DNA from: Apostichopus japonicus
Taxonomy: Eukaryota > Echinodermata > Holothuroidea > Aspidochirotida > Stichopodidae
NCBI RefSeq assembly: GCF_037975245.1
Contig: NC_092562.1
Coordinates: 22,807,554-22,871,553, forward strand
Direction: 5' to 3'
Length of the DNA stretch: 64,000 nt
Positions within the stretch are counted from its first letter, which is position 1. Each line of letters opens with the position of its first letter. Positions 17,125 through 17,650 of this stretch are shown piece after piece. The position numbers and the translations under genes were made by a program. The notes under the pieces are model-generated. The model was not told the origin of the DNA. It made no database searches and worked only from the letters and a program-made list of their open reading frames with translations.

Positions 17125-17258
17125 TCCGTTCTTTGTTAATTAATCCGCTTCCTGTAAAGTCATGGTTTATTTGGTTATCATTCCATCAATGCCACTTACA
17201 CATATCTAGCGTGTTATTTTCATTGTGTTATATTTTGTACTTCTCACTCGACTGCCAA

Positions 17259-17314
17259 GTATTGCTGACGAAGGTCCCAGGGGGACCGAAAAATTCCAAT
17301 ATATTTTCTAAAAC
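17259..17314 (+). ncRNA. Hammerhead ribozyme-like motif (type I), Penelope-associated
   Basis: The conserved core CTGACGA (17265-17271) is followed by a stem II hairpin, GGTCCC (17273-17278) pairing with GGGACC (17282-17287), and then GAAA (17288-17291). A short A/U stem III could pair the As after GA with the Us before C17308, the expected cleavage position after UC. Stem I would pair GTATTG (17259-17264) with TAAAAC (17309-17314), with one mismatch and one wobble. Penelope-like elements are known to carry such ribozymes in their terminal regions. This copy lies about 140 bp after the endonuclease stop. Weak stems I and III mean activity is uncertain. Confidence 0.65.
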
Positions 17315-17366
17315 AGTACACCTTATTTGTCAATTATGAGTCATATCTGATTTCCCTGTTTTTTCT

Positions 17367-17484
17367 TATATATATATATATATATATATATATATATATA
17401 TATATATATATATATATATATATATATATATATATATATATATATATATATATATATATATATATATATATATATATATATATT
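17367..17484. repeat. (TA)n microsatellite between inverted Penelope terminal copies
   Basis: About 58 uninterrupted TA dinucleotides lie between the plus-oriented Penelope terminal segment (to about 17345) and its inverted copy (from about 17540). The open frames across it encode only Tyr-Ile alternation and are artefacts. Confidence 0.95.
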
Positions 17485-17539
17485 ATAACGAAAATCCACG
17501 TTTACTCCAAAAGAAAATATTAAATTAGAAAACCAGAGA

Positions 17540-17650
17540 AATAAGATTTCACTCATAATTGACAAATAAGGTTTAATGATTTAGAAAATATATTGGAATT
17601 TTTTGTCCCCCTGGGACCTTCGTCAGCCATCCTTGGCAGTCGAATGGAAA
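17540..17650 (-). mobile_element. Inverted copy of Penelope terminal region with decayed hammerhead motif
   Basis: The reverse complement of this stretch aligns with 17245-17345. Shared segments include CGACTGCCAAG, GCTGACGAAGGTCCC, ATTCCAATATATTTTC and CTTATTTGTCAATTATGAGT. The hammerhead core CTGACGA and the 5' strand of stem II are intact (17615-17626 on the minus strand). The nucleotides joining stem II to GAAA are altered (ACAAAAAA in place of ACCGAAAAA), so this copy probably cannot cleave. Confidence 0.7.

Follow-up and report, generated by a model that had tools for sequence, protein, structure and literature searches.

Inverted arms around a TA tract

The window, by which we mean the whole 64,000-nucleotide stretch of Apostichopus japonicus DNA that was analyzed, contains two inverted arms that flank a TA microsatellite, and the left arm comes after open reading frames that resemble part of an endonuclease (Table 1). 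The arms align over 136 columns with 16 differences, i.e., 88% identity by blastn, and their 3' ends point toward each other, an arrangement that we call tail to tail. A first-pass annotation had proposed an inverted pair of hammerhead-like ribozymes around a (TA)58 tract. This layout is borne out by the alignment of the arms and by the perfect TA run of 117 nt, i.e., (TA)58+T, that lies between them. An artefact in which the assembly folds back on itself is ruled out, as the arms are just 88% identical and differ by small indels.

Table 1. Features of the inverted pair and of the sequence that precedes it (PLE, Penelope-like element; pLTR, pseudo-LTR)
Feature	Position	Strand	Basis
PLE endonuclease remnant, first frame: cysteine-rich CGKPRCQICPH, then IYIFYCVLCKEEIYVGET (GIY-YIG type)	16545..16910	+	Open frame; Pfam GIY-YIG E=0.27 alone
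Same endonuclease, C-terminal part in another frame; frameshift at ~16880-16900	16855..17121	+	Open frame; without its own GIY-YIG match
+ arm, probable pLTR 3' end of a PLE, without tail extension	17229..17363	+	88% inverted match to 17529-17663; after endonuclease remnant
Minimal type I hammerhead motif, predicted cut C17296/C17297	17259..17302	+	Rfam RF00163, 15.8 bits; descriptor; fold of 44-mer
Extra A between core A9 and stem II	17272..17272	+	Direct reading
(TA)58+T microsatellite, putative insertion target	17367..17483		Tandem Repeats Finder and direct run search
Candidate PLE "tail" extension, 41 nt, only on the 3' side of the - arm	17488..17528	-	Lies between arm end and TA edge
The - arm, probable inverted, 5'-truncated pLTR copy	17529..17663	-	Alignment to + arm
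Decayed hammerhead, with CTGACGA intact, a 5-bp stem II, loss of one C and of G12, and two disrupted stem I pairs	17588..17632	-	Arm alignment and predicted fold

The match between the arms reaches positions 17216 and 17674 by local alignment, where the outermost ~10 nt on the right side overlap another repeat that starts at about 17665 and has a second copy at 17990. On the inner side, the gaps are unequal. The + arm is separated from the TA run by 3 nt. For the - arm, the distance to the perfect run is 45 nt, or 41 nt if the tract is taken to end at 17487, which is the edge given by Tandem Repeats Finder. Measured from the first base of stem II of the hammerhead (see below), the arms extend for 91 nt on the + copy (94 nt including the 3 nt beside the TA run) and 131 nt on the - copy, so the two ends are offset by 37-40 nt. 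A long ORF beginning in an arm was considered and ruled out: frames that cross the arm stop early or enter only the TA tract. One weak lead in this regard is that an ATG at 17556 in the - copy opens a frame that crosses the candidate tail and enters the TA tract; the equivalent ATG in the + copy (17336) reaches a TGA at the fifth codon.

The first-pass annotation had also placed the pair next to a Penelope-like endonuclease remnant, and this neighborhood is supported, with a GIY-YIG score that is below the Pfam cut-off. When the two pieces in Table 1 are trimmed and joined by an X, they match Pfam GIY-YIG with E=0.026 and 15.2 bits, under the cut-off of 22.6, and we read the hallmark residues by eye. 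The second piece alone has a sub-cut-off match to DUF6581 (E=0.032, 13.6 of the 27 bits needed). We take the GIY-YIG motif of the remnant to be of the PLE kind. Among + strand pieces of at least 35 amino acids between 14000 and 17400, we recognized no reverse transcriptase piece by eye, and the copy therefore looks 5'-truncated. No direct 5' pLTR was found in the window; what is present is the inverted copy at 88% identity, with the + arm following the endonuclease remnant. Patterns derived from the two endonuclease pieces selected 32 and 8 stretches in viral contigs, among which tblastn found no relative.

Several other features lie in the same window. Directly to the right of the - arm, at 17665-18270, are two SINE-like repeat copies that are 87-94% alike in their matched parts, with a start-to-start distance of 325-377 bp. 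The tRNA-like part of the first copy scores 48.9 bits with Rfam and is reported by ARAGORN as a tRNA with anticodon TTA (stop); that of the second copy scores 18.1 bits, below gathering. A second long TA run, of 91 nt, is followed by a stretch that appears palindrome-like by eye (13764-13910). Tandem repeats are found at 19196-19862, where Tandem Repeats Finder gives 4.7 copies of a 141-bp unit at 98% and also scores units of ~29 bp, and at 56785-57795, where there are 2.8 copies of a 363-bp unit at 91%; the latter unit has a retrozyme-like size, and our descriptors find no hammerhead in it. Possible host exons are a C2H2 zinc finger piece at 25144-25710 on the - strand (Pfam E=1.5e-06) and an RGG-rich piece at 27476-28003 on the + strand with a sub-cut-off match to HABP4/PAI-RBP1 (Pfam E=0.12).

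The hammerhead motif and its extra nucleotide

In the + copy, the CTGACGA core (17265-17271) is preceded by the 5' side of stem I, which forms six pairs including one G.U (17259-17264/17297-17302). Beyond the core and the extra A, stem II has 6 bp and the loop AGG (17273-17278/17282-17287), and it is followed by GAAA at 17288-17291. Stem III is almost absent, as it consists of the single pair A17291-U17295, and the cleavage nucleotide is C17296. A CTGACGA core, a 6-bp stem II, GAAA and a plausible UC site had been claimed for this copy, and both the descriptor (see below) and direct reading confirm them, with the cut expected after C17296. We dropped a register with a longer stem III (AAA/TTT) and a cut at C17308, because the register with a one-pair stem III yields the 6-bp stem I and is also the one in the Rfam alignment. 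The full combination of CUGANGA core, stem II, GAAA and a UH site closed by stem I is complete in the + copy only.

The Rfam hammerhead covariance model, which had been suggested as a check on both strands, gave a mixed result. On the + strand, Hammerhead_1 (RF00163) matches at 15.8 bits with E=0.19 (for a 105-base query and 4227 families), which falls short of the gathering score of 34 bits, and on the - strand there is no match. For Hammerhead_1 alone, scaled to the whole window, the corresponding E-value is ~0.03 by our own arithmetic. No hammerhead is reported by Rfam in the whole window at gathering thresholds, or in a 2-kb search with E up to 10. In the alignment to RF00163, the core and stem I follow the model, and we attribute the weak score to the two places where the motif departs from it, i.e., the extra A that separates A9 from stem II, and the stem III that is a single A-U pair.

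A strict descriptor, which was devised once the site was known, yields this site as its one hit on both strands of the 64 kb and no hit in 200 dinucleotide shuffles. It specifies the core, an optional extra A, stem II, GAAA, a short or closed stem III, UH and a stem I of at least 5 bp, and is too stringent for the published ribozyme of PAc (Poseidon from Anolis carolinensis, a PLE), whose stem I has 3 bp. A looser pattern consisting of core, stem II and GAAA finds two sites, at 17265 and 868, versus 0.11 expected; the site at 868 fails the strict descriptor and was dropped.

One paper reportedly deals with a viroid hammerhead that has an extra nucleotide in its core. We searched for hammerhead patterns with an extra A before stem II, and found 4 stretches in IMG/VR viral contigs versus at least 120 without the extra A, and 8 stretches in genome contigs. 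Hammerheads with the extra A are thus found elsewhere, though they look rare. Five of these 12 loci passed a structure test that left out type II topology: four as type III (L001, L002, L004 and L009) and one as type I (L007). As L002 and L009 are the same site, the 12 loci represent 11 distinct sites, 4 of which passed the test versus 0.14 expected with shuffled flanks. In a control without the extra A, the test was passed by 45 of 116 distinct sites among the matches listed, versus 0.78 expected. The loci that passed are in IMG/VR and bacterial contigs. None of the 12 loci, including those that passed the structure test, has a hammerhead reported by Rfam at gathering, and consequently the sub-gathering score of the + copy is not decisive. 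A narrower pattern with the minimal stem III had 0 matches in genome contigs, and a pattern close to our stem II had 0 in viral contigs. The tested Anolis ribozyme likewise has an extra nucleotide before stem II, and we suggest that this nucleotide may be a genuine trait of PLE hammerheads, one to which standard models give low scores.

The - copy had been described as keeping CTGACGA and one side of stem II and losing the GAAA junction. It does keep CTGACGA, but the statement that only one side of stem II survives does not hold, given that the predicted fold has 5 of the 6 stem II pairs; what is lost is one C, a stem II base, and G12, which is changed from G to A. Two stem I pairs are broken without compensation, and our structure script yields no complete structure in this arm. 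With two copies only, there are 0 compensatory changes between the arms. The arms differ in 4 of the 44 columns within the hammerhead and in 12 of 92 columns elsewhere, so the hammerhead has no clear extra conservation.

The isolated 44-mer is predicted to fold with stems I and II (-12.7 kcal/mol). In the context of the arm, the predicted pair probability of stem I is at most 0.01 (ViennaRNA), even in the absence of the other arm. For a read-through RNA (17216-17674), one long duplex is predicted at -234.8 kcal/mol, with the ribozyme base-paired to the opposite arm. This prediction agrees with the long snap-back that had been anticipated for a transcript, and the ribozyme would be buried in it. 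Taken together, the decay of the arm, the predicted duplex, the disfavored stem I and the mutant and read data from PAc (see below) point to a locus that is most probably inactive, or that at best relies on protein or on dimer formation. Both copies now look like relics. The locus itself is likely an ordinary genomic relic, and a function at this site is unlikely.

Origin of the facing ends

In our judgment, the locus is likely to represent two 3' ends of one PLE family that entered a single TA microsatellite in opposite orientations, with their tails facing. The left copy would be a 5'-truncated element that retains the terminal part of its endonuclease ORF, the 3' UTR and a pLTR with the minimal hammerhead. 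The right copy would be a 5'-truncated pLTR stub of ~135 nt, with a tail extension of ~40 nt and a dead hammerhead. According to this model, the GIY-YIG enzyme of the element would nick AT-rich DNA, presumably in a TA tract that was already there, and reverse transcription would start at an internal position of the element RNA, at either of two sites that lie 3' of the ribozyme. Use of the two start sites would give the short end on the left and the long, tailed end on the right. The ribozyme of a living element would act to trim tandem transcripts, probably aided by protein or as a dimer. The arms, the asymmetry and the tract would all be accounted for if one family had inserted twice into a single TA tract. 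The arms, the motif, the asymmetry and the order of the parts are observed directly, whereas two separate insertions, the identity of the tail and any catalysis are inferred.

Several lines of evidence support the interpretation of the arms as PLE ends: the arms are homologous and the left one lies directly after the endonuclease remnant; the descriptor site is unique in the window, with 0 of 200 shuffles giving a match; the anatomy is like that of PAc; minimal ribozymes, inverted pLTRs, AT-rich targets and optional tails have been published for PLEs; and the offset of 37-40 nt between the two ends compares with the 30-40 bp of the PAc tail. Other considerations weaken it. The Rfam and Pfam GIY-YIG scores are below their thresholds, the comparison relies on two copies only, with no compensatory change, and stem I pairs with a probability that does not exceed 0.01 within the arm. 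The reverse transcription start and the cut motif of PAc fit imperfectly, the mutant and read data from PAc leave room for doubt about the role of the ribozyme even in living elements, and no reverse transcriptase piece is recognized here.

The main alternative, which we regard as unlikely, is that a single event produced both of the facing, tail-to-tail ends. Self-priming on a sense template would yield a tail-to-tail arrangement, according to the available text of PMC3846280; the PAc protein acts on both DNA strands, which it cuts and extends; and the layout is palindromic. However, the ends are unequal by 37-40 nt and a long TA tract lies between them, unlike in a simple fold-back junction, and for this reason we consider a single event less likely than two insertions. 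Moreover, our own reasoning about strand polarity indicates that priming on both strands of one break would give head-to-head copies with their tails outward. A specific variant, in which a single PLE insertion used both known reverse transcription start sites at one TA target and left a snap-back that silences its own ribozyme, is in our view quite unlikely.

It is very unlikely that the right arm is a non-autonomous retrozyme, or another hammerhead repeat mobilized by PLE enzymes, instead of a truncated PLE. Metazoan retrozymes are ~170-400 nt in size, carry type I hammerheads and co-occur with PLEs, and the ribozymes of amphibian retrozymes likewise have a very weak helix III (PMC7229834, available text). 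On the other hand, the entire right arm is colinear with the sequence downstream of the endonuclease remnant, the window has no tandem array of the arm and no second site for the strict descriptor, and canonical retrozyme ribozymes have typical helices and loop contacts in the same text, in contrast to the minimal ribozyme here. The notion that the hammerhead likeness is coincidental and that the arms are some other inverted repeat, MITE-like or a foldback element, is highly improbable: it would fit the sub-threshold scores, the stem I disfavored in context and the rarity of the extra A in viral contigs, but not the shuffles, the position right after the GIY-YIG-like remnant or the agreement with PAc, extra nucleotide included.

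Overall, the interpretation made in the first-pass annotation is partly supported, and the locus is probably a further case of a PLE with a minimal hammerhead.

Comparison with known elements

The locus resembles metazoan retrozymes, as they are described in the available text of PMC7229834, in having a type I hammerhead in a short retroelement. It differs from them in that there is no tandem repeat and no real helix III, and in that an endonuclease remnant is adjacent. By comparison, the hammerheads of PLEs are minimal type I motifs without helix III in the accessible parts of PMC6155905 and PMC7761336, and PLEs are described in the portion of PMC8969392 at hand as 5'-truncated on insertion, with single copies that show inverted pLTRs and short 3' extensions.

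The Penelope families of Adineta vaga (Pen2a_Av etc.) are similar in several respects. In the available text of PMC3846280, these families have direct and inverted pLTRs, one of which optionally carries a 31-bp tail, and Penelope elements are reported to favor simple AT-rich targets. Their inverted repeats are most frequently head to head, and some inserts have 8-10 bp TSDs. The locus shares the inverted pLTRs and the AT-rich target, has a candidate for the optional tail, and differs in its tail-to-tail orientation on either side of a TA microsatellite. The idea that an inverted arrangement flanking TA repeats is unusual is therefore less well supported than it seemed, given that inverted pLTRs and AT-rich targets have been published for PLEs; what stands of it is that tail to tail is the rarer orientation in that account. 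The word hammerhead is absent from the main text of PMC3846280. A narrow literature search found no published description of the exact layout, i.e., tail-to-tail PLE ends across a TA repeat.

The closest comparison is with PAc. According to the available text of PMC11167929, cleavage by the PAc hammerhead required addition of the PAc protein, insertion in vitro was the same with ribozyme mutants, and the cut site was not the end point of any RNA read. The same text describes a protein that cuts and extends both DNA strands, with a preferred cut motif ATT, and a main reverse transcription start 111-118 nt into the ORF. PLE tails are given as 30-40 bp in general, and in PAc the tail lies between two reverse transcription start sites. 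The placement of the PAc core is our own, and fits that text, which puts C3 and G8 ahead of the start codon.

With one script applied to both sequences, the PAc ribozyme and the + copy share the extra nucleotide between A9 and stem II, the 6-bp stem II, GAAA, C17, and the single A15.1-U16.1 pair of stem III with a loop of 2-3 nt. In PAc, stem II is GCCUGC/GUGGGC and stem III is A-CG-U, and the distance from A9 to the cut is 28 nt, versus 25 nt in the + copy. The extra base is U in PAc and A here, stem I has 3 bp versus 6 bp, and the core is CTGAGGA versus CTGACGA. The PAc ORF starts at stem II, whereas no long ORF starts in the arm here. Also, the ATT cut motif contrasts with a TA run, and the present locus offers relics only. 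The main reverse transcription start reported for PAc falls between the two ends seen here, and matches neither exactly. Nonetheless, both elements have two possible 3' ends that are 30-40 nt apart and an AT-rich target. Given more copies, facing ends at one TA tract could be used to test, from sequence, the model in which PLE reverse transcription has two start sites.
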